Positions 319-34,567 of a stretch of 34,810 nucleotides of DNA are shown here, one piece after another. Both the position numbers and the translations under genes were made by a program. How positions within the stretch are numbered: the first letter of the stretch is position 1; every line of letters begins with the position of its first letter. The stretch lies in NCBI GenBank assembly GCA_012521615.1, contig JAAYMA010000099.1:1-34810 (forward strand). Reading direction: 5' to 3'. Below the pieces are notes generated by a model that was given only the letters and a program-made list of their open reading frames with translations, searched no databases and was not told the DNA's origin. This DNA is from Clostridiaceae bacterium (GTDB lineage Bacteria; Bacillota; Clostridia; DSM-8532).

Positions 319-912
319 TCAAAAATTATCCTTATATTTATTCCACCAGGCCATGGCTTTATCAATCATTTCCGGATGTGTTTCCGGATTAAAGTCAAGA
401 GTAACATCAATATATTCTCCATCTGTAAAAGCTTTTACCTCTTCATCCTGACTTGCAAGAAGAAGAGCGTACAGTACCAAAGCTCTTTCATAATCATCAT
501 CGGTGTCCAGTTTTTCTATCAGTCCCGGTATGCTTTTCTTACCTAACATACCCAGCTCCTCTGCTGCTGTATACCAGACCTTGGGTTCCTCTCCATCACC
601 ATAGGTATCTGTAAATGATTTGTCCTTAAGTTTTTCAAGATAAAAAGCCACCTTCTGATCTTCGTTATCAGTGATATCTTCTTCGGTCTGATCTTCTCTC
701 TTATCAGATTCCGGCATTATATCCGCTTCCCCGGAACTTTCATTGCCATCTTCAGGTCCGGCAGGCAGGATGGATATATCCAGGATTGCATCTGAATCCG
801 GATTGTTTTCTGTATTTTTCTTGTTTGATGCAGCATTACAGCCGACCAACAACGTCAACAACATTGCTGTAATCACTGCAATTGATGTCATTCTTTTAAG
901 TTTCGTAATCAT
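319..912 (-). CDS. Predicted lipoprotein of unknown function
   Basis: I do not recognise the family. The N-terminus has a basic stretch, a hydrophobic core and the lipobox LVGC, so Cys25 should be lipidated and the protein anchored on the outer face of the membrane. Residues 30-90 are acidic and low in complexity, probably a flexible tether. The C-terminal half, with motifs such as KKSIPGLIEKL and RALVLYALLLAS, is helical and faintly like a HEAT repeat. Start choice: an ATG at 918 touches the ribosome site, while the ATG at 912 lies 6 bases behind AGGAGG, so 912 (197 residues) is preferred. The gene stands alone and is divergent from the DUF3810 gene. The 167 bases between them hold no strong promoter for this strand. 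Confidence 0.75.
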   Translation of the reverse strand: MITKLKRMTSIAVITAMLLTLLVGCNAASNKKNTENNPDSDAILDISILPAGPEDGNESSGEADIMPESDKREDQTEEDITDNEDQKVAFYLEKLKDKSFTDTYGDGEEPKVWYTAAEELGMLGKKSIPGLIEKLDTDDDYERALVLYALLLASQDEEVKAFTDGEYIDVTLDFNPETHPEMIDKAMAWWNKYKDNF

Positions 913-1079
913 CGGCATCCTCCTTTTTTATTTTTATTTGATTTAAGAAGCATCCTGTTTTTTGGACATAAATTCCTGCTTCTGCTAATTAGACGCATCA
1001 TAGCCGGATAAAGTTCTGATAAATATTATAATTTTATTGTATAATAAAGAAGCATATATAAGCTATAGGGGGATTATAT

Positions 1080-2201
1080 ATGAGTTTCTTTAAATACAGC
1101 CCACCTGAAATGAAAAAACTCTGTATATATAGATATCTGTCCTTACTGCTTATTCCCGTTGCCTTTTTAATAAAATGGCTTATGTCACTAGACCCTGTTT
1201 TTACTGAAAAATATTATTCAAGAAAGATATATCCTTTTATTATGCAGCCCATAAGCAGATTCACCGGCTTATTTCCCTTCTCTGTTGCTGAGATTGCCGT
1301 AATTCTTATTGTTTTTTATTTTATTTATCAACTGGTTTCGGCCATTATAAAATCCATACGACGAAGAAAATGGGTTTTTATAATAAATTTTTTGAGTAAA
1401 GCTGCTTTTGCTGCCTCGATTTATATTTTTCTTCAGACAATTTTATGGGGAATTAATTACGAACGAATAACATTTGCAGAAAATGCCGGTATAATTGTTG
1501 AAAAGTATTCGGTTGATGAGCTTGAGGAACTGTGCAAAGAACTTATAAACAATGCAAATTCGATGAGAGAAAAAGTTACTGAAGATGAAAACGGAATTAT
1601 GTGTGTTGACGGAGGATTCAAATCCCTGGCCAGACGGGCCCATTTAGGATATGAAGAAGCGCAAAAAAAATATCCTTTTCTAAGTGGCAAATATGGAAAA
1701 CCAAAACCGGTTATATTATCAAAACTCATGTCCCACAGCAATATAATAGGCATTTATACAGGCATAACAGGCGAGGCCAATATCGATACGGATATTCCTG
1801 ATATGGAACTGCCCTCCACCATCATGCATGAGCTTGCTCATCAACGAGGATTTGCCAACGAGGATGAAGCAAACTTCATTGCATATGTAACATGCCTGCA
1901 CCATCCTGATATAGATTTTCAATACTCAGGAACTATTCTTGCCTTGCAGTATTCCATGAATGCTCTTTACAGAACAGAATCTGAAAGATATTTCAAATTG
2001 ATTGAATTTTATAGTCCCAAATTACTGAATGATTTCATGGACCAGAAAAAATACTGGGACCAGTATCAAGGTACTATAAAGAAGGTAGCTAATTCTATAA
2101 ACGATACATTTCTGAAAATTAACGGAGTAAAAGACGGCGTCCAAAGCTATGGACGTATGGTTGATCTGCTGCTGGCAGAAGCCAGGAGTAATTCGCAGTA
2201 A
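1080..2201 (+). CDS. DUF3810 family membrane zinc metalloprotease-like protein
   Basis: The N-terminal third has three hydrophobic segments (about residues 20-36, 67-90 and 101-124), so the protein is membrane bound. The C-terminal part carries HELAH at 250-254 followed by an acidic EDEANF at 261-266. This HExxH plus downstream Glu pattern binds catalytic zinc in gluzincin peptidases and is typical of DUF3810 proteins, which are described only by this motif. Substrate and role are unknown. The start ATG follows AGGGGG by 7 bases. A TATAAT at 1040-1045 with a CTGATA 18 bases upstream is a possible promoter. The gene ends in a hairpin that works on both strands. The family call is from memory of the motif and general layout. 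The peptidase activity is inference. Confidence 0.8.
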   Translation: MSFFKYSPPEMKKLCIYRYLSLLLIPVAFLIKWLMSLDPVFTEKYYSRKIYPFIMQPISRFTGLFPFSVAEIAVILIVFYFIYQLVSAIIKSIRRRKWVFIINFLSKAAFAASIYIFLQTILWGINYERITFAENAGIIVEKYSVDELEELCKELINNANSMREKVTEDENGIMCVDGGFKSLARRAHLGYEEAQKKYPFLSGKYGKPKPVILSKLMSHSNIIGIYTGITGEANIDTDIPDMELPSTIMHELAHQRGFANEDEANFIAYVTCLHHPDIDFQYSGTILALQYSMNALYRTESERYFKLIEFYSPKLLNDFMDQKKYWDQYQGTIKKVANSINDTFLKINGVKDGVQSYGRMVDLLLAEARSNSQ

Positions 2202-2238
2202 AATTTCTATGTCCGGGCAGCGCAATAAATCTGAAAAA

Positions 2239-2267
2239 AGAGACAGGGAACAGTTCCCTGTCTCTTT
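2239..2267. terminator. Bidirectional terminator between convergent genes
   Basis: A perfect stem AGAGACAGGGA / TCCCTGTCTCT closes on a 5-base loop. The + strand copy is followed by TTTCCT, and the - strand copy runs into TTTTTT (complement of 2233-2238). It sits between the stop of the DUF3810 gene and the stop of the SPFH gene and can end both transcripts. Confidence 0.85.
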
Positions 2268-2284
2268 CCTATCTCTTTTAAAAA

Positions 2285-3205
2285 TTAGTCTTTTGCCAGT
2301 TCCTTTACAGAGGTAACAATCGAAGCCAGGTTCTGAAGCTCTGAAGGAATAATTATCTTTGTGGACTGACCATCTGCGACCTTCTCCAATGCCTCCAGAC
2401 CTCTTATTGCTATAACTTCCTGGCTGAGCTCCTGTTCTTTTATCATTCTGAGACCTTGAGCAGTGGCGTTTTGAATTTTCAGGATAGCCTCAGCCCTGCC
2501 TTCTGCTTCTTTTATAGCAGCCTCTTTCTTGGCTTCAGCACGCAGAATGGCAGCTTGTTTTTCTGCCTCTGCCCCGAGGATAAGAGCCTGTTTTTTACCT
2601 TCAGCTACAAGGATATTGGATGTTTTTTCTCCCTCAGCTTTCAATATTGCTTCACGTCTCTCGCGTTCAGCCCGCATTTGTTTTTCCATTGCATTCTGGA
2701 TATCTGCAGGAGGAATAATGTTTTTGACTTCCACACGGTTAATTTTTATCCCCCATGGATCAGTAGCTTCGTCAAGTATAATACGCATTTTATTATTTAT
2801 GATATCTCTGGATGTAAGGGTTTCGTCAAGTTCCAGATCACCTATAATATTACGCAGGGTGGTTGCCGTTAATGTCTCTATTGCAAGAAGCGGTCTGTCT
2901 ACGCCATAAGTATATAATTTGGGGTCTGTAATCTGAAAGTATACAACTGTATCAATCTGCATAGTCACATTATCTTTTGTGATAACAGGCTGGGGAGGAA
3001 AGTCAAGAATTTGTTCTTTTAATGATACCCGGTTTGCAATCCGGTCAATAAAGGGTGTTTTTATGTGCAGACCCACACCCCATGTATCTTTATAAGCTCC
3101 CAGCCGTTCAATGATATAAGCATTGGCCTGAGGTACTACTTTGATGTTGGCTATAAAAACCAGAATCCCAAAAAGTATCAGAATAGCAAATAGAATCGGA
3201 CCCAT
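2285..3205 (-). CDS. SPFH/stomatin-like (slipin) membrane protein
   Basis: SPFH proteins form large membrane-attached rings or scaffolds linked to membrane microdomains and to protein quality control. One N-terminal membrane segment covers residues 2-20. The SPFH/band-7 domain follows (about 22-175), starting with VVPQANAYIIERLGAY. Then comes a long Ala/Glu/Lys-rich coiled coil with repeated AEGEK, AEGKK, AEAEK and AEAKK units (about 175-265), and the conserved end LSQEVIAIRGLEAL. Length (306 residues) fits the QmcA/paraslipin group. A TTG at 3220 is in frame but forms part of the ribosome site GGAGG, which lies 8 bases before the ATG at 3205, so 3205 is chosen. It follows nfeD by 29 bases, the usual NfeD-slipin pair. 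Confidence 0.92.
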   Translation of the reverse strand: MGPILFAILILFGILVFIANIKVVPQANAYIIERLGAYKDTWGVGLHIKTPFIDRIANRVSLKEQILDFPPQPVITKDNVTMQIDTVVYFQITDPKLYTYGVDRPLLAIETLTATTLRNIIGDLELDETLTSRDIINNKMRIILDEATDPWGIKINRVEVKNIIPPADIQNAMEKQMRAERERREAILKAEGEKTSNILVAEGKKQALILGAEAEKQAAILRAEAKKEAAIKEAEGRAEAILKIQNATAQGLRMIKEQELSQEVIAIRGLEALEKVADGQSTKIIIPSELQNLASIVTSVKELAKD

Positions 3206-3234
3206 AACAATTACCTCCAAAATAATTTTCTAGG

Positions 3235-3666
3235 TTATTTTAAAGCATTTACAACTAATTTAACCCCCTGAATTTCCTCAATTATTACTTCCGTATCTTT
3301 TTTTATGCTCTCACCAGTCTTGCTCACTGCTGTCCAAATCTGCCCCCTTACTTTAACCTGCCCTGTAGAATGCTCGGTTATATCCATTATTACGATGCCT
3401 TTCTCACCAATCAGCGAATCCACATTTGTCCTGTGATCGCCTACTTTGAGATATTTTACAGCAACAGGTCTTGTAAAAATCAAAAGCAGGATTGAAACTG
3501 CAAAGAAAACTGTTATTTGGGACCAAACCGGAAGATTAAGCATTGAAAAAATAAATGCGATTAAGGAACCGGCAGCAAGCCAGATTGTAGTAAGACTGAC
3601 GGTTATTGCCTCAATCACAATCAGTATTATGGTCAAAGCAATCCATATATAGGTGTAGACCTCCAT
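3235..3666 (-). CDS. NfeD-like membrane protein with OB-fold domain
   Basis: NfeD proteins pair with SPFH/slipin proteins and are thought to help them assemble. This is the short form, without the serine protease domain of NfeD1a. Three or four hydrophobic segments fill residues 5-68, and the soluble C-terminal part (about 80-143) has the NfeD OB-fold pattern with GEKGIV and GQVKVRGQIWTA. The start ATG at 3666 follows AGGAGG at good distance. It is first in a two-gene unit with the SPFH gene. A stable hairpin between it and the GNAT gene upstream suggests that the pair has its own transcript, though no clear promoter was found. Confidence 0.9.
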   Translation of the reverse strand: MEVYTYIWIALTIILIVIEAITVSLTTIWLAAGSLIAFIFSMLNLPVWSQITVFFAVSILLLIFTRPVAVKYLKVGDHRTNVDSLIGEKGIVIMDITEHSTGQVKVRGQIWTAVSKTGESIKKDTEVIIEEIQGVKLVVNALK

Positions 3667-3693
3667 AAACCTTCCTCCTGTAAAAAGAGTCCT

Positions 3694-3728
3694 CTCATAA
3701 TTTATTTGTCATTCAAACAAATTATGAG
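3694..3728 (-). terminator. AT-rich hairpin behind the GNAT gene (possible terminator)
   Basis: The arms CTCATAATTTATTT (3694-3707) and AAACAAATTATGAG (3715-3728) pair over 14 positions. The one imperfect pair is G-U in minus-strand RNA but A-C in plus-strand RNA, so the structure belongs to the minus transcript. A CTTTTT run follows after a few bases, so termination could be weak. It may instead be a processing or stability element upstream of nfeD. Confidence 0.5.
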
Positions 3729-3739
3729 CTACATTACCT

Positions 3740-4888
3740 TCAAGAAGTGCTTTCAGTGTTCCCGTTCAGATGTTTGATATAGCATCTTCTCCTGCGGTGG
3801 ACACGGGTACTGTAATTTCTCCACATGGACTGTACCGCGTAATTTGTTTCAAGCTCCGGTGAAGCAATAGCCCTCACAACTCCATTTTTTATGGCAGCCT
3901 TTGTGAGCTCATCCAACATAACATATGGTACGCCTTTCATCCTGAGCTCAGGTCTTATGGCAACCAGATACAAATCAAGAGTATCATTTTTCTTTATAGC
4001 TTTTAATAAATGTATAAACCCAAAGGGTAATATCCGCCCTTTACTTTTTCTCGCAGCTTCTGACAATGAAGGCATAATTATACCGAAACCAGCAAGTTTG
4101 CCCTCAGAGTCCTGGATGATATTAATATAATCAGGATTTACAAAGGAGAAATACTGTTTGACATATGTATCAATTTGTTTTTCTGTAATGGGTACAACAC
4201 CATACAGATGTTCATATGCCTCATTTATCAGATAAAATATGTCCCTTGCATATGGAAGTGCATCTTTGGGTTTTTTTATGGGCACAACACTCAATCCATA
4301 TTTTTCCTTAGCCTTTTCAGCCATGTCTGACAGTTTTTTAATGACACCTGCATCTTTAGGAGGAGTAATTTCTATTTCAATCCAGTCCACATCTTTGACA
4401 TACCCGTAAGACTCAAGGTGCTCGGAATAATAAGAATAGTTGTATATTGTAATAAAGGTTCCCATTTCATCAAAACCTTCAACCAGCATACCCTGCTTAT
4501 CCAGATCACAAAAACCAAGCGGACCGTGAACAGCATCCATACCTTTTTCTTTTGCCCATTCTTCAACCTTGTTAATAAGAGCGCGGGAAACTTCGTAATC
4601 ATCAATGAAATCTATCCATCCGAAACGGGCATAGCGCTGCTTCCATTTTTCTATGTAACTATGATTTATAATTCCTGCAATCCTGCCGGCTATTTTTCCA
4701 TCCTTATATGCCAGCCACATTTCAGCTTCACAGTATTCAAATGCCGGATTTTTTTCTTTATTGAGAGTAAACTTTTCATCTGCTATCAAAGGAGGTACCC
4801 AATAAGGGCTGTCTTTATAAAGTTCAAAAGGAAAGTTAATAAATTCTCTTAGCTGTCTCTTGTTTTCAACTCTAACGATTTCAACCAT
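3740..4888 (-). CDS. GNAT-like N-acetyltransferase family protein
   Basis: A soluble protein of 382 residues. The first part (about 1-110) contains WLAYKDGKIAGRIAGIINH, which has the beta-strand/turn pattern of GNAT acetyltransferases. The second part repeats this type of fold, with GKLAGFGIIMPS near residue 270 followed by LDLYLVAIRPELRMKGV, where the RxxGV stretch resembles a weak acetyl-CoA loop. Similar 370-390-residue proteins occur in Clostridia and Bacteroidetes without a known substrate. Start: the in-frame TTG at 4903 is part of TTGAGGAG, the ribosome site, and the ATG at 4888 lies 8 bases behind it. No TM segment or signal peptide. The GNAT assignment rests on local patterns, so substrate and activity remain open. 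Confidence 0.7.
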   Translation of the reverse strand: MVEIVRVENKRQLREFINFPFELYKDSPYWVPPLIADEKFTLNKEKNPAFEYCEAEMWLAYKDGKIAGRIAGIINHSYIEKWKQRYARFGWIDFIDDYEVSRALINKVEEWAKEKGMDAVHGPLGFCDLDKQGMLVEGFDEMGTFITIYNYSYYSEHLESYGYVKDVDWIEIEITPPKDAGVIKKLSDMAEKAKEKYGLSVVPIKKPKDALPYARDIFYLINEAYEHLYGVVPITEKQIDTYVKQYFSFVNPDYINIIQDSEGKLAGFGIIMPSLSEAARKSKGRILPFGFIHLLKAIKKNDTLDLYLVAIRPELRMKGVPYVMLDELTKAAIKNGVVRAIASPELETNYAVQSMWRNYSTRVHRRRRCYIKHLNGNTESTS

Positions 4889-22905: not shown

Positions 22906-23391
22906 ATGACTAAACTATATATTAAGCAGAAAGTCTTTTCCATTGGCGATAAATACACTATTACAAATGAATTTGGCCAACCTGTATTCTTTGTGGAGGG
23001 TGAAATTTTTACTTTTGGCGCCAAGATACATCTATACGATGCCATTGGAACAGAGCTCTATTTTATACAGCAGAAAGTATTCAGATTTTTACCCGAATAT
23101 CATATTTACAATGGCAAAGACCTGAGTGCTGTTGTCAAAAAAGAATTGTCATTTTTCAGACCCAGATTAAATATAACAAGTCAGTTCGGACATTTTACCA
23201 TTGAAGGAAATCTGTTTGCAATGGATTTTGCCATATTGAACAATGGAGTGGTGATAGGTGAATTACATAAAAAGTGGCTGTCCTGGGGAGACAGCTATGA
23301 ACTTATAATCCATGATGACAATCTTGCTGCTTTTTTCTGCGCCCTGGCTATCTCAATTGATCACTGTCTCCATAACGAAAATAACAGATAA
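22906..23391 (+). CDS. LURP-one-related (Tubby/scramblase-like fold) protein
   Basis: A small soluble protein of 161 residues made almost entirely of beta-strand patterns: LYIKQKVFSIGDKYTITNEF, PVFFVEGEIFTFGAKIHLYD, ELYFIQQKVFRFLPEYHIYN. This run is characteristic of the LURP-one-related/DUF567 family (YxjI in Bacillus), which has a Tubby-like barrel with a central helix. The late hydrophobic stretch NLAAFFCALAISIDHCLHN would be that helix. Its bacterial function is unknown. The ATG follows AGAAGGG at good distance. It is single, with a palindrome upstream and the tRNA-Leu promoter 35 bases downstream of its stop. Confidence 0.82.
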   Translation: MTKLYIKQKVFSIGDKYTITNEFGQPVFFVEGEIFTFGAKIHLYDAIGTELYFIQQKVFRFLPEYHIYNGKDLSAVVKKELSFFRPRLNITSQFGHFTIEGNLFAMDFAILNNGVVIGELHKKWLSWGDSYELIIHDDNLAAFFCALAISIDHCLHNENNR

Positions 23392-27349: not shown

Positions 27350-28246
27350 TCAACGTTCTGCATCTTCTTTTATAGATGAAAGACCAAAAATGCTGCCGCC
27401 TGATCCCAGAATAATACTTGCAGTCATTATAATAACCACAACATGTTTCACAAGCTCATTTTTAGGAGGCAAAGGAATAAACGGAATCGTTCCTGAAAGC
27501 TGTCCAAATCCGATGTTTATAGCAATAACAGTTAGTACAGATGCAATTATTCCACCACATAAGATCATTAACAATCCTGCTATCAGGAAAGGGAAACCTA
27601 TAAATGAATTTGAAGCTCCCAAAAGTTGCAGCGTATTAATTTGAAACCGGTTTTCGTATATTCCCTGTCTTATCATATGAGAAATAATAATTATTGTAGT
27701 TATACCCACAGCAGCTGTTACAATATAACCCGCCATATTCAACGTTTTTACTATCCCTTCTATCCTATTTAATATTTCTCTGTTATCCCTTACATATTCT
27801 ATACCCTCTATATTTTCAATCCTGTCAATTACTCTTTCTGTCTCATCCAGGTGAATCCTTATCTCTATGTATTCTTCAAAGGGGTTTTCCTCAAAAAGTT
27901 CCAGAATCCCGGCTTCATTTCCTAATACATTTTCCATCCGGTTATAGGCTTCTGCCTGACTTACCAGGTTTACTTCAAGTACTCCGTCAATTTCTTCGAT
28001 AAGACCTATGAGATTATCTTTATCAATTTCATCCAGATTTTCTTCATAATACGCACTGATTTCTGCCTCTTCCTTAAGCATAAGAACCAGCCGGTTACTG
28101 ACATTCCATCCTGTGATAACCAGAGCAAAAATAAAAAGTATTAATACTGTACCTATAAATGAAAAAATATTGGAAAGCAGGTTAAGCCTGATAGTCTTGT
28201 ATGCCTCTTTCAAAAAATATCCCATATTGAATAAAACCGATTTCAT
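27350..28246 (-). CDS. ftsX: FtsX-like permease of the FtsEX complex
   Basis: FtsX is the membrane half of an ABC-type machine that switches on cell-wall hydrolases during division, elongation or sporulation. It has four membrane segments (about 25-48, 170-195, 218-245 and 268-290) and a large extracellular loop (about 50-165) containing AEISAYYEENLDEIDKDNL and the typical PFEEYIEIRIH. The C-terminal FtsX domain has QINTLQLLGASNSFIGFPF. Length 298 is normal. The start overlaps the ftsE stop by one base (TAATG), so the two are translationally coupled. The loop is where an EnvC/PcsB-type partner would dock, and such a coiled-coil protein is encoded just upstream of ftsE. Confidence 0.94.
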   Translation of the reverse strand: MKSVLFNMGYFLKEAYKTIRLNLLSNIFSFIGTVLILFIFALVITGWNVSNRLVLMLKEEAEISAYYEENLDEIDKDNLIGLIEEIDGVLEVNLVSQAEAYNRMENVLGNEAGILELFEENPFEEYIEIRIHLDETERVIDRIENIEGIEYVRDNREILNRIEGIVKTLNMAGYIVTAAVGITTIIIISHMIRQGIYENRFQINTLQLLGASNSFIGFPFLIAGLLMILCGGIIASVLTVIAINIGFGQLSGTIPFIPLPPKNELVKHVVVIIMTASIILGSGGSIFGLSSIKEDAER

Positions 28247-28920
28247 TATGCCCTGCCCCCTTGCTCCATAGTAATACGGCCACCATTAATTCTTATAAAA
28301 ACTGCATCTTTTTGATTATCAATAAGATGAGTAGCATGTGTTGTGATTAGAACCGACGTTTTATCATCCCTCAGCGAAGAAAGTAGTTCCAGAATGCTCA
28401 CTGCATTGTCCAGGTCCAAATTGCCAGTTGGTTCATCAGCCAAGATAAGAGCAGGTTTTCTGATTATAGCCCTTGCAATGGCGACTCTCTGACATTCGCC
28501 CCAGGAGAGATTTTCCACCAGACTCGAATACTTATGTTTTAATCCGACTTTTTCAAGAGCATTTAATGATTCGGATTTCATTTTTTTCGGAGAAAAGCCT
28601 AAGAAACGAACACCCATCATGACATTTTCCAAAGCTGTCCTTCCCTTTATCACCCTGAAATCCTGAAAAACAGGACCAATATTTCTCCTTAATCTTCTTA
28701 TCCTTCTCTTTTCTTCCTTAGCTATTTTTTGACCAAGTACCAAAACCTCTCCTTCGGAGGGATATTCAACACCCATAAGAAGCTTCAGCAGACTGGTCTT
28801 GCCCGAACCGCTGGGACCTGTTATATAGACCAATTCACCCGCTCCAATATTAAGATTTATGTCTTTTAAAGCAGTGGTTCCATCCTTGTATGTAAGAGTA
28901 GCTCCTTTTATTCTGATCAT
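28246..28920 (-). CDS. ftsE: FtsE ATPase of the FtsEX complex
   Basis: FtsE hydrolyses ATP to drive the FtsX permease. Walker A is GPSGSGKT (35-42), the Q-loop is in GPVFQDFRVI, Walker B is LILADEP (158-164) with D-loop GNLD, and the switch His is H195 in ITTHATH. The ABC signature is odd: residues 138-142 read LSWGE instead of LSGGE/LSGGQ, so the first signature glycine is a tryptophan (codon TGG), and the next residue is Cys where QQR is usual. The rest of the signature helix (RVAIARAIIRKP) is normal. Length (224) fits. It follows the coiled-coil partner gene by 42 bases and overlaps ftsX by one base. Confidence 0.94.
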   Translation of the reverse strand: MIRIKGATLTYKDGTTALKDINLNIGAGELVYITGPSGSGKTSLLKLLMGVEYPSEGEVLVLGQKIAKEEKRRIRRLRRNIGPVFQDFRVIKGRTALENVMMGVRFLGFSPKKMKSESLNALEKVGLKHKYSSLVENLSWGECQRVAIARAIIRKPALILADEPTGNLDLDNAVSILELLSSLRDDKTSVLITTHATHLIDNQKDAVFIRINGGRITMEQGGRA

Positions 28921-28962: not shown

Positions 28963-30078
28963 TTAAAAGAAAGAAATCTCAAATTCAATATATCCGTCCT
29001 TGATCTCAACAGACTTGACAGTAAAACTTCCAACAGGGTCTGTGAGATCTATAAGCAGATAACCTTCCCTGAACAATTCCCTTAAAGATGATGGTTCAAG
29101 AAACATATCGTAAAAAGTACCTTCCATGGGTTCAAACTTCAATGCCTTACCTTCAACAACAGCAAAGGTACCCGAAAGTTTAAGCTTCTTTTCTGGTATT
29201 TCCACCCGGGCGTTTCCGGGAAGAAATTCGAATTTGAGCTTTGGAAGTTTTGAATGTTTTTCAAGCACTTCGTTTATCCTGTCATCATACATTGCACCCT
29301 TTATGGAGGTCAGACCGATTTTTATATTAAAATCTTCAACGGTAAAATAGCCTTGATTAACTATCATAGTATATTCCTCAATTATTTGAGGAAAAAGTCT
29401 TTTAAGATCTTCCCATACAAGCTCCATACTTTTAAGCTGCTGCTCAAAATACTGTCTTTTTTCCTTCAGGGAATCAAGATATGCTTCCTGCTCATTTTTC
29501 AGTCTGATTTTATTTGCTATTGCCACCTGCAAATCTTGCCGCCTGGAATTTAACATATTTTGCTTTTCATTTAACTTATCTTTTTCCTGAACCAGCTGCA
29601 TTTTTTCTTCTTCCAGGGAATTCAGAAGCTCGCCGGTATTATGAGCCAGCTCCCTTATGATATTTACATTTCTTATGAATTCTTTAATATTTTTAGAATC
29701 CAACAGAGTTTCAATAAATGTCGCAGGCCCCCTTCTCTGGTATGACACAAGAACCTTTTTTAATATTTCAAGGTCTTGATCATATTTTTCCTGCCTCTCA
29801 CCTATCAACTCTTCCAGACTCAAAATATCGTTTTGTAATAATTCAATTTCTTCGCCAATCTCTTCTTCTTCGCGGATCATTCCCTCGATTTCCTGAGAAA
29901 GTATAAAGAGTTCTTCTACTATAGCCTTTTCGTCATCTGTGATCTGCTCAAGAGACTCTTCCAAGCCTGAAACAGTTTCTGTCTGTTCACCTGAACTTAT
30001 ATGGGGAAAAACGAGAAATAATATTAAAAAAAGTGAAATAAAAACTTTTAATACTCTTTTGATGCCGCCACAATTCAT
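28963..30078 (-). CDS. Exported coiled-coil protein, probable FtsEX partner without hydrolase domain
   Basis: An N-terminal signal or anchor segment (about 9-27) is followed by a long coiled coil (about 33-225). Within it, SYQRRGPATFIETLLDSKNI, EFIRNVNIIRELAHN and ELLNSLEEEKMQ match the pattern of the EnvC/PcsB/CwlO coiled-coil domain that docks on FtsX. Where those proteins carry an M23, CHAP or NlpC/P60 enzyme domain, this one has about 140 residues (230-371) rich in beta-strand patterns and without a recognisable catalytic motif: no His-x-His, no Cys/His pair. It might be a lipid-binding or adaptor domain, but that is a guess. It is the first gene of the unit with ftsE and ftsX. The ATG has GGTGG upstream. 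Confidence 0.8.
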   Translation of the reverse strand: MNCGGIKRVLKVFISLFLILFLVFPHISSGEQTETVSGLEESLEQITDDEKAIVEELFILSQEIEGMIREEEEIGEEIELLQNDILSLEELIGERQEKYDQDLEILKKVLVSYQRRGPATFIETLLDSKNIKEFIRNVNIIRELAHNTGELLNSLEEEKMQLVQEKDKLNEKQNMLNSRRQDLQVAIANKIRLKNEQEAYLDSLKEKRQYFEQQLKSMELVWEDLKRLFPQIIEEYTMIVNQGYFTVEDFNIKIGLTSIKGAMYDDRINEVLEKHSKLPKLKFEFLPGNARVEIPEKKLKLSGTFAVVEGKALKFEPMEGTFYDMFLEPSSLRELFREGYLLIDLTDPVGSFTVKSVEIKDGYIEFEISFF

Positions 30079-30107: not shown

Positions 30108-30136
30108 ATTATATCACGGCATAATTTTTCTTTCCA
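30108..30136 (-). promoter_or_regulatory. Probable promoter of the coiled-coil/ftsE/ftsX unit
   Basis: On the minus strand TGGAAA (complement of 30131-30136) and TATAAT (complement of 30108-30113) are 17 bases apart, with an extended TG one base before the -10 box. The leader is about 25 bases. No convincing promoter was seen for the divergent activase gene in 30137-30292. Confidence 0.65.
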
Positions 30137-30292: not shown

Positions 30293-33200
30293 ATGAAAAA
30301 CACGGATACTTCTGAGACTGTTTATCACATGGGGATTGATGTTGGTTCCACTACTGTAAAAGTTGTGGTGACCGATAAGAACGATAACATAATTTTTGAT
30401 ATATACCGCAGACACTATTCTGATTTGTGGAAGGCATTAAGCGAGATCGCCCTTGATCTTAAAAATAAGTTTGGAAACACGAAAGTAACCCTGGCTGTTA
30501 CCGGTTCGGGAGGACTTGCAGTTTCTGAAAAATTGGGTTTACCCTTTGTCCAGGAAGTAATAGCAGGAAGCAAAGCTGTACGCAGATTTATGCCCGATGC
30601 AAATGTGGTTATTGAGTTAGGCGGCGAGGACGCCAAGATTACTTTCTTTGAAAATGGTGTCGATCAACGTATGAACGGTATTTGCGCAGGAGGTACAGGT
30701 GCCTTTATTGATCAGATGGCGGCACTTTTGGAAACTGATGCACAAGGGCTTGACAAACTGGCAGAAAATTATAATGTAATATACCCTATAGCAGCCAGGT
30801 GCGGTGTTTTCGCCAAAACCGACATACAGCCCCTGTTAAATGAAGGAGCCAGAAAAGAAGACATAGCAGCATCAATTTTTCAGGCTGTTGTAAACCAGAC
30901 AATCAGCGGACTTTCCTGTGGCAGGAAAATAAAAGGCAAGGTGGGGTTCCTGGGTGGCCCTCTCCATTTCTTGCCCCAGTTAAGAAAAAGATTTAAAGAA
31001 ACCCTGGATCTGAATGACAAAGATATGTTTGTCCCCGAAAAAGGCCAGGTCTATGTCGCACTGGGTGCCGCCCTTGCTTCCAAATCCCAGCTGTTAAGCG
31101 TGAAGTATGAAGATTTACTGACATTCACCGGTTTTTATGAAAAGGCAAAGTCAGATAAAAGAAACTTTATGTACGAAACAGCACATCTTGAGCCTCTTTT
31201 TGAAAATGAGAGCCAGTATTCAGACTTTTTGGAGAGGCACAGCAAGAATAAAGTCAAAAGAAAAGACCTGTCGTCTCACAGCGGAAACTGCTTTCTTGGG
31301 CTGGATATCGGTTCAACAACAAGTAAAGCGGTTCTGATAGATCAGGAAAATAATCTGCTGTATTCATGCTACATCAATAACCAGGGAAGCCCCCTGAATT
31401 CAGCAGTTAAAATGCTTAAAGTAATCTATTCCCAATTGCCCGGGAATGCCAGTATAGCATATTCTGCAGTCACAGGGTATGGTGAGCATTTAATAAAAGC
31501 TGCTTTATCCTGTGATATAGGAGAGGTTGAGACAGTAGCCCACTATACTGCAGCAGAATATTTCCTTCCTGGTGTAGAACTGATATTGGATATAGGCGGC
31601 CAGGACATGAAATGTATAAAAATAAAAGATGGCGTAATCGAAAATGTCATGCTGAATGAGGCCTGTTCCTCGGGGTGCGGCTCATTCATTGAAACCTTTG
31701 CCAAAACTTTGGATATGGATATTGAAGACTTTGCCATGGAAGGAATAAAAGCAAGGAAACCTGCAGACCTTGGCTCCCGCTGCACAGTTTTTATGAATTC
31801 CAAAGTAAAGCAGGCTCAAAAAGAAGGTGTCTCCATAGGTGATATTTCAGCCGGATTATGCTATTCGGTCATTAAAAATGCCCTCCATAAAGTAATAAAA
31901 ATCAGGGATGCTTCCGACCTGGGGGATAAAATTATTGTTCAGGGCGGTACTTTTTTGAATAATGCCATTTTAAGAAGCTTTGAGAAAATTATCGGAAGAG
32001 AAGTCGTAAGACCTGATATAGCAGGTTTGATGGGTGCTTTTGGCGCTGCCATTCTGGCAAAGGAAGCATATGCCAAAGATAATAAAAAGTCATCTCTTAT
32101 AGGTCCTGATAAATTAAATGATTTTAAAATCGGGACCACAACCTCGAGATGTAATGGCTGTACAAATAAATGCCTTCTTACTATTAACATATTTGATAAG
32201 GATAAAAAATTCATAACCGGAAACAAGTGCGAAAGAGGTTCGGGCAGCGAAAGACCAAAAGACATCCCCAATCTTTACGAATACAAATTTAACAGGCTTT
32301 TTGACTATAAGCCTCTGGATGATGAAAAAGCCCATCGTGGTGTAATTGGCATTCCAAGAGTTCTCAATATGTATGAAAACTATCCTTTCTGGTTTACTTT
32401 CCTGACAGAACTGGGTTTTAAAGTAGTTTTATCCCCAGTCTCAAACAGAAAAATATACGAACTTGGGATGGACACAATATCTTCAGACACAGCATGCTAT
32501 CCTGCAAAACTTGTCCACGGGCATATTGTCGCTCTTGTCAATCAGGGAATTAAGCATATTTTCTACCCCTGTATTCCTAAAGAAAGAATAGAGTTCAAAG
32601 GTGCCGACAACAGCTACAATTGTCCCATAGTAAACGGTTATGCTGAAGTAATAAAAGCCAATATGGACATTCTTGAAGAAAAGAATGTGAGATTTCATAA
32701 CCCATTTTTGCCTTACGATGATAAGAAAAGGCTCACAAAAAGACTTTATGAAGAATTCCGGGAATTTGGAGCAAGTTTTAACGAGATAGAAATGGCAGTT
32801 GACAAAGCCTGGCTTGAAGACATCAAAGTAAAAAAGGATATTCAGAGAAAAGGCGAAGAAACTATAAACTATCTTAAAAAAACAGGTCTGAAAGGTATTG
32901 TTTTATCCGGAAGACCCTATCACTTAGATCCGGAAGTTAATCACGGGATTCCCAACCTTCTGACTTCTTTGGGTCTGGCTGTATTAACCGAAGATTCAGT
33001 TTCACATTTAGGGAAACTTGAAAGACCTCTTCGAGTCCTTGATCAATGGATGTACCACTCCCGTCTCTATGAAGCAGCCGAATTCGTTTCAAAAAATAAT
33101 AATCTTGAGCTTGTACAGCTTAATTCTTTTGGCTGCGGGCCTGATTCCATAGCCATTGAGCAGGCCCAGGAGATACTGGACAAAACAGGAAAGATTTATA

Positions 33201-34567
33201 CCATGCTGAAAATTGATGAGGTTAACAATCTTGGTGCAGTCAAAATCAGACTCAGATCACTTAAGGCTGCTATGGACAGAAGAGCGGGTTTTGCGGATCT
33301 TGATGAGAATAATACAGAAAAATATAAAAGACCCCTTTTTACAAAAGAAATGCGTAAAAATCAATATACTATCCTTGCACCGCAAATGGCTCCCATACAT
33401 TTCGAACTTATTGAACAAGCCGCACTTTCTGAAGGTTATAATCTGAAAGTACTTAAAACAGCAGATAGATATGATATAGAAGAAGGGCTTAAATACGTAA
33501 ATAACGACTCCTGCTACCCTGCCATAATCGTTATAGGCCAATTAATAAATGCATTGAAATCCGGCGAATACGATCCCCGCAGTACAGCGGTAATAATAAG
33601 CCAGACAGGAGGTCCCTGCAGGGCCAGCAATTATCTTGCTCTTTTGAAAAGAGCCTTGGATGAGGCAGGGTTCCATAATGTCCCAATAATATCACTCAAT
33701 GTAGCCGGACTTGATAAAAGCCCAGGATTTAAAATTACTCTTCCCCTGGTAAAAAAAGCTATAATGGGCATGATATACGGAGATCTCCTTATGAGGGTTT
33801 TATACCGCACAAGACCATATGAAAAAAATAAAGGCGAGACAGACAGAATATTTGAGAAATGGATGGAAAGATGCAAGTCAGATTTATGCACTTTAAACCG
33901 CAATGTCTTCCGTCAGAATCTTACCGGTATAGTTGCAGATTTTGAAAGAATAAGCATTAAAAATGAAACCAGGCCTAAAGTCGGGCTTGTAGGTGAAATT
34001 TTGGTCAAATATCACCCCACTGCCAACAATAATATGGTTCAGTTTATCGAGAATTCGGGAGCAGAAATGGTTGTACCCGATCTTACAGACTTTTTCCTTT
34101 ACTGTGCTTATGGACGGGAAATGGACTGGCGTTATCTTGCAGGAAACAAAATACAGCGCGTATTGGGGAATCTTTTCATATCTATTGTTGAGGGATACAG
34201 AAACGACATGAGAACCGCCCTTAAAAACAGCAGAAGATTTAGCGCACCCAAGTCAATTTATCAATTGGCAGAAAACGTACGCCATATACTTTCCCTCTGC
34301 AATCATACCGGCGAAGGATGGCTTCTGACTGCAGAAATGGTGGATCTGATTGAAACTGGTGCAAACAATATTATCTGTATGCAGCCTTTTGCATGCCTTC
34401 CAAATCATATAACCGGGAAAGGAATGATTAAGAAACTTAAAAATTTATATCCCCATACAAATATTGTAGCGGTGGATTATGATCCCGGTGCAAGCGAGGT
34501 CAACCAGGTAAACCGGATAAGACTTATGCTTGAAAAAGCAAAGGGTAATCTGGGCATAAGTTATTAA
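30293..34567 (+). CDS. Double-ASKHA acyl-CoA dehydratase activase-related protein (BcrAD/BadFG, DUF2229)
   Basis: A 1424-residue cytoplasmic protein. Two BcrAD/BadFG ATPase domains are in tandem: domain 1 (about 12-265) with [23 protein letters not shown] (Cys131) and ARCGVF (Cys170), and domain 2 (about 335-592) with [25 protein letters not shown] (Cys458) and SRCTVF (Cys497). In 2-hydroxyglutaryl-CoA dehydratase activators the equivalent two Cys of each monomer hold one [4Fe-4S] cluster across a homodimer. Next comes a four-Cys module (C620, C623, C627, C646) and the DUF2229 part. The C-terminal portion ([33 protein letters not shown]) resembles the HgdB/double-cubane reductase partner. ATP-driven low-potential electron transfer is likely; the substrate is unknown. 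The AGGAGG lies 18 bases before the ATG, unusually far. Confidence 0.9.

Follow-up and report, generated by a model that had tools for sequence, protein, structure and literature searches.

A second, diverged FtsEX-type system in Clostridia with a partner predicted to be secreted and to end in a TULIP-like domain

The textbook view of FtsEX is that it controls cell-wall hydrolysis only. The mechanism described for these systems is a mechanical stroke, in which the binding of ATP in FtsE moves the extracellular domains of FtsX, reshapes the coiled coil of a partner protein and thereby releases an effector (PMC7668044; PMC11627006). The docking site of EnvC in Escherichia coli is the X-lobe of FtsX, and FtsX-binding sites have been predicted in PcsB at residues 101-114 and 130-148 (PMC7668044). 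FtsEX-PcsB of Streptococcus, FtsEX-CwlO of Bacillus and FtsEX-RipC of Mycobacterium all consist of a type VII ABC pair, with an extracellular domain on FtsX, and a secreted partner with a CC_PcsB-type coiled coil, and the partners end in CHAP, NlpC/P60 or M23 domains. EnvC, the partner in E. coli and Vibrio, also has a coiled coil but is no hydrolase, its end being a degenerate LytM/M23 domain.

The system reported here shares the ABC pair, the extracellular domain of FtsX and the coiled-coil partner with these systems, and differs from those with PcsB, CwlO and RipC in that the partner has a predicted TULIP-like end, its gene comes first in the unit, FtsE and FtsX belong to a separate clade, and a canonical FtsEX coexists with them. 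It was found in a stretch of 34,810 nucleotides from a Clostridiaceae bacterium (contig JAAYMA010000099.1), referred to below as the window, where genes for an FtsE and an FtsX, here called FtsE2 and FtsX2, lie downstream of the partner gene on the same strand (Table 1). The open reading frame bounds of the partner gene are exact.

Table 1. Features of the partner-ftsE2-ftsX2 unit, in window positions.
Feature	Position	Strand	Details and basis
Partner gene	28963..30078	-	371 aa, ATG; signal peptide, PcsB-type coiled coil, linking helix and TULIP-like tail (predicted)
Predicted signal peptide, residues ~1-31	29986..30078	-	Sequence, alignment; helix 4-27 in model
Antiparallel coiled coil, residues 48-202	29473..29937	-	AF2 model; Foldseek coiled-coil matches
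Predicted CC_PcsB docking segment, residues 95-163, contains SYQRRGPATFIETLLDSKNIKEFIRNVNIIRELAHN	29590..29796	-	PF24568 E 1.8e-7
Helix 205-241, coiled coil to tail	29356..29466	-	AF2 model
Predicted TULIP-like domain, residues 250-371	28966..29331	-	AF2 pLDDT 91; VIA top rows
ftsE2, ABC ATPase, 224 aa	28246..28920	-	TIGR02673 below cut-off; separate clade
Variant ABC signature LSWGECQR (canonical LSGGEQQR)	28486..28509	-	FtsE alignment
ftsX2, permease, 298 aa	27350..28246	-	PF18075 3.1e-12
FtsX2 extracellular domain with X-lobe	27791..28063	-	PF18075, alignment
Sigma-A-like promoter TGGAAA-17-TATAAT with TG extension	30108..30136	-	Consensus match

The partner is most likely secreted, since its N-terminal signal-peptide-like helix ends near G30, a position that is glycine in 38 of 44 homologues, with GQ or GE next in most. 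Given 44 natural homologues as input, AlphaFold2 models the full partner at pLDDT 82, with two long helices, 48-115 and 131-202, that precede the linking helix, and the FtsEX partners EnvC, PcsB and RipC are among the Foldseek coiled-coil matches of this model. CC_PcsB is the sole Pfam family above its cut-off in the protein (PF24568, 31.4 bits; gathering cut-off 27 bits) and is matched, at E of at most 1, by all 26 homologues scanned. The linking helix may take the place of the restraining arm of EnvC or of the alanine-rich helix of PcsB (PMC7668044), a likeness by analogy that would extend the resemblance to EnvC beyond the coiled coil and the lack of a hydrolase. Matches of the whole model by Foldseek and VIA-align were mostly to unrelated coiled coils, such as the iSH2 domain of PI3K, and were set aside; the top two Foldseek rows for the full partner, both Tc-type toxins, had rmsd above 45 Å and were taken as chance.

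A search with FtsX_ECD revealed two FtsX genes in the source genome. The one outside the window is on contig C61, in an operon that runs ftsE-ftsX-coiled coil/M23-ctpA and whose hydrolase retains intact M23 motifs (HGGVD and HLHFE), and CC_PcsB is present in both partners. The C61 pair passes the NCBI cut-offs, with 291.6 bits for FtsE on TIGR02673 (cut-off 264.85) and 241.8 bits for FtsX on NF038347 (cut-off 225), whereas the window pair fails them, with 230.6 bits for FtsE2 on TIGR02673 and, for FtsX2, 130.7 bits on NF038347 and 140.8 bits on TIGR00439 (cut-off 255); the FtsEX of the window is therefore a second one that has diverged. A first-pass annotation, made from the sequence of the window alone, had rightly recognized a partner that keeps the FtsX-docking coiled coil and had proposed that FtsEX may work here through an adaptor, in place of a hydrolase. 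Given that a standard FtsEX-M23 system is present, this proposal does not hold for the organism taken as a whole; a true EnvC/CwlO-type partner, named there as counter-evidence if it binds the window FtsX, is indeed encoded elsewhere in the genome, next to an FtsX of its own. Two FtsX genes were also seen in each of two genomes without the tail protein (G040 and G104), and there may be further FtsEX duplications in Clostridia. At one locus (L028, G147:C27) two coiled-coil partner genes lie in tandem after ftsE-ftsX, at 1420-2631 and 2665-3579, the second running off the locus, and a similar pair of coiled-coil matches occurs on G125:C23.

In a quick, unrooted tree of 91 proteins, a single long branch with a support of 100 separates FtsE2 from canonical FtsE. 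Walker A, Walker B with the catalytic E163, and H195 are invariant in 70 FtsE2 rows, and for this reason ATPase activity is expected. The signature reads LS[W/F/Y]GE[A/C/S]QR, with S139 and G141 invariant and, between them at position 140, an aromatic residue in 68 of the 70 rows, compared with glycine in 38 of 39 canonical FtsE. The extracellular domain of FtsX2 scores above the PF18075 cut-off and its X-lobe segment aligns without loss; within it F123 is invariant and F118 nearly so, and the clostridial canonical FtsX consensus differs at both. Judged on sequence, FtsE2X2 is a type VII ABC system of the FtsEX type in the broad sense, outside the canonical FtsEX of NCBI. One FtsE2 from a contig labelled Anaerolineaceae (Chloroflexota; L093) groups with Lachnospiraceae such as Herbinix; this MAG contig has probably been misassigned.

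In a set of 148 relatives, about 27 genomes from several families encode full-length homologues that include the tail, with ftsE2 and then ftsX2 downstream wherever the contig permits. A scan of 84,980 species gave 43 related loci, and the carriers include Herbinix hemicellulosilytica, Petroclostridium sp. X23, Candidatus Formimonas warabiya, Geosporobacter, Lutispora thermophila, Natronincola, Anaerosolibacter, Anaerovirgula and Schnuerera. A few of the contigs stop inside the unit, and the order of tail gene, ftsE and ftsX, to which the first-pass annotation had drawn attention, is conserved at every locus that holds all three genes except L103, where positions 731-4500 run ftsE2-ftsX2-(small ABC-like ORF)-tail gene. 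The flanks of the 43 loci vary, with no additional gene conserved around the unit and neither a lipid gene nor a hydrolase gene conserved beside it; a search for plasmid carriage of the unit gave no match. In 391 Clostridia the FtsX2 profile is bimodal, with 33 genomes at 177 bits or above and canonical FtsX at 147 bits or below. The tail profile matches 36 of these genomes, including all 33 with FtsX2, so that FtsX2 is never found without the tail. Many Clostridia have this second machine in addition to a normal FtsEX. In two of the three tail-only genomes (G112 and G139) the unit is cut by the contig end, and the third (G379) has just a piece of the tail, covering 84 profile positions, where a contig begins; that fragment apart, the tail is always fused to an open reading frame of coiled-coil length. 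The partner gene, ftsE2 and ftsX2 make up a unit of three genes that are passed on together and are separate from the canonical FtsEX-M23 operon of the source genome. Internal stop codons were noted in one tail domain (TAA, G282:C15:195425-195886) and one FtsX2 (TAG, G183:C200:2470-3351), possibly decayed copies or assembly errors.

The tail itself is a beta-rich stretch of about 120 residues (approximately 250-371) in which P295, G303, G320 and L327 are invariant across 44 sequences, and this conservation argues that it is no degraded remnant. Searches of 20 tails against Pfam and 44 against NCBIfam returned no convincing hydrolase-family match and no C-terminal CHAP, NlpC/P60, M23 or LytM domain, and searches of Pfam, NCBIfam and PDB with the tail gave chance matches only. 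The EnvC model NF008644 scores 10 bits on the window partner where 270 are required, and, in contrast to the degenerate LytM/M23 end of EnvC, the partner has no M23 match. The absence of a hydrolase or M23-like domain claimed from the first reading is thus upheld by the family searches and by the structural matches, in which an M23, CHAP or NlpC/P60 fold was looked for and none was found.

Modelled alone, the tail is predicted confidently by AlphaFold2 (pLDDT 91, pTM 0.84). The model begins with a strand at 258-264 and a helix at 265-275, continues with strands at 282-286, 289-294, 299-308 and 312-322 and a helix at 329-335, and ends with strands at 353-360 and 363-369. Foldseek alone gave nothing significant against the PDB (best E 0.04). 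When the Foldseek candidates were re-aligned with VIA-align, TULIP proteins took ranks 1-5 and 7 with 114-128 residues aligned and Z from 7.1 to 4.1, all of them below 8, where a common arrangement may still account for a match. YceB (3l6i) comes first (Z 7.1, 116 residues, 3.8 Å), followed by BPI (1bp1; Z 7.0, 123 residues, 3.6 Å), CETP (2obd; 5.8), P47 (5wix; 4.9), a second BPI structure (1ewf; 4.6) and, in seventh place, LBP (4m4d; 4.1); the only non-TULIP row in the top seven is the bile-salt-binding protein 5kew (4.5), and small unrelated structures appear from Z 3.9 downwards. Bacterial TULIPs are described in PMC6791001 as having an alpha-beta core preceded by a single strand and followed by two, and the order of elements in the tail model is the same. 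Because the top VIA rows and the order of strands and helices both fit, we call the tail TULIP-like: on the model, it probably has this fold, with membership in the TULIPs unproven. Sequence homology is not significant in a profile comparison, since hhalign of the tail against a seven-row YceB profile gave a weak local match (P 0.018, probability 2.5%, 19 columns), located at the segment of helix 265-275. The tail thus compares with YceB/DUF1439, DUF2140 (YpmS), DUF2993 (LmeA), P47/OrfX2 and DUF4403 in predicted fold, element order and extracytoplasmic place, but differs from them in lacking a significant sequence match, in being fused to a coiled coil and in being tied to an ABC pair. DUF2140 and LmeA (PF09911 and PF11209) were considered as the source of the tail and rejected, as the tails give no such Pfam match; neither family was found at E 0.001 in 60 Clostridia including the source genome, where positive controls worked. 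The suggestion in the first-pass annotation that the partner perhaps binds lipid agrees with the predicted fold, from which lipid binding itself may be inferred.

All the parts that the FtsEX stroke requires are retained in the FtsE2X2 unit. The X-lobe is kept and the predicted FtsX-binding sites of PcsB correspond to the CC_PcsB segment, so docking is well founded by homology: a coiled coil of the PcsB/EnvC type is predicted, with good support, to dock the partner on the FtsX2 extracellular lobes. The reading that we favor, with little more than even confidence, is a second mechanotransmission system of the FtsEX type in which a dedicated partner handles a lipid or lipid-linked molecule by means of its TULIP-like domain. 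Binding of ATP by FtsE2 would squeeze the extracellular domains of FtsX2, their movement would reshape the partner coiled coil, and the TULIP-like domain would be freed or repositioned outside the membrane, where, at the outer leaflet, it could capture, gate or pass on an envelope molecule that is a lipid or is linked to one. A role in lipid capture or export has been suggested for the TULIPs of monoderms by the author of PMC6791001. Among the type VII ABC systems, LolCDE-LolA and YbbAP-TesA extract lipoproteins and other hydrophobic molecules for an extracytoplasmic partner (PMC12646458). An ambitious extension, offered tentatively and with rather less than even confidence, is that FtsEX duplication gave monoderms an ATP-driven lipid-handling machine, in which the stroke that usually sets free a wall hydrolase would open or shift a TULIP domain so as to extract or deliver a lipid-linked envelope molecule; it would be the Gram-positive equivalent of LolCDE-LolA, its carrier being tethered. 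YbbAP-TesA and LolCDE-LolA belong to other ABC subfamilies with other partners, and we know of no docking coiled coil of the PcsB type and no TULIP-like domain on those partners.

The strongest competitor, though in our judgement a less likely one, is that the TULIP-shaped tail binds a protein and, like EnvC, recruits or activates a separate wall enzyme as FtsE2X2 cycles, with lipids uninvolved. EnvC is a precedent for an FtsEX partner that acts solely by activating enzymes in trans (PMC7668044), and the alignment of homologues reveals a conserved motif, G-x-F-Y-x-M-x-L, that could form a protein interface together with the C-terminal strands of the tail. The neighborhood of the unit cuts both ways, as the want of a conserved lipid gene suits such an adaptor and the want of a conserved hydrolase gene does not, while the closest folds to the tail are carriers of lipids or hydrophobic ligands. 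It is improbable that the tail serves as an anchor to wall polymer or teichoic acid that positions FtsE2X2 at a wall site: an extracellular, conserved, beta-rich domain without a catalytic motif would suit this purpose, but the tails match no known wall-binding module in Pfam or NCBIfam and the structural matches are not wall-binding folds. We give still less credence to a brake on the normal system, in which the tail protein would dock on canonical FtsX and keep the M23 hydrolase off, for although CC_PcsB occurs in both partners of the source genome, the tail protein is tied to FtsX2 by gene order and occurrence (33 of 33 genomes) and the FtsX2 X-lobe has conserved phenylalanines of its own. 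That the tail is an unrecognized wall-cutting enzyme is barely credible, even though the FtsEX partners so far described from Gram-positive bacteria are hydrolases (PMC11627006; PMC7668044), given that strong conservation in it falls on P, G, L, F and N, that the tail alignment lacks any conserved grouping of Cys, His or Asp of known hydrolase type, and that no hydrolase family or fold was matched.

The lipid-handling reading suggests that a division ABC machine has been repurposed for work on lipids outside the cell. If this is true, FtsEX mechanotransmission is modular and can power other work outside the membrane, and the finding links two fields, those of division ABC systems and of TULIP lipid carriers. 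The literature searched, coverage of which was incomplete, yielded no account of a TULIP linked to FtsEX or of a second FtsEX whose partner is TULIP-like, and the novelty is provisional. Cultured carriers such as Lutispora thermophila and Geosporobacter make the system testable.

The promoter element lies about 30 bp upstream of the partner gene, and an equal or near-equal element is found upstream in four close relatives (L076, L077, L083 and L114). As it is sigma-A-like and kept in these relatives, it suggests vegetative expression of the unit, consensus matches alone being weak evidence. A sporulation-specific role was considered and set aside: most Clostridia have SpoIVA regardless of whether they carry the unit, and three carriers (G015, G021 and G043) yielded no SpoIVA; this pattern, together with the sigma-A-like promoter, leads us to claim no link with sporulation. 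Elsewhere in the window, positions 22906-23391 (+) encode a 161-aa LURP-one-related protein (PF04525, 8e-16), from a family related to the scramblase/tubby fold. A gene at 30293-34567 (+), oriented divergently to the FtsE2X2 unit, encodes a protein of 1424 aa that we take, from its sequence, to be two activase-type ATPase modules fused with a dehydratase-like part.
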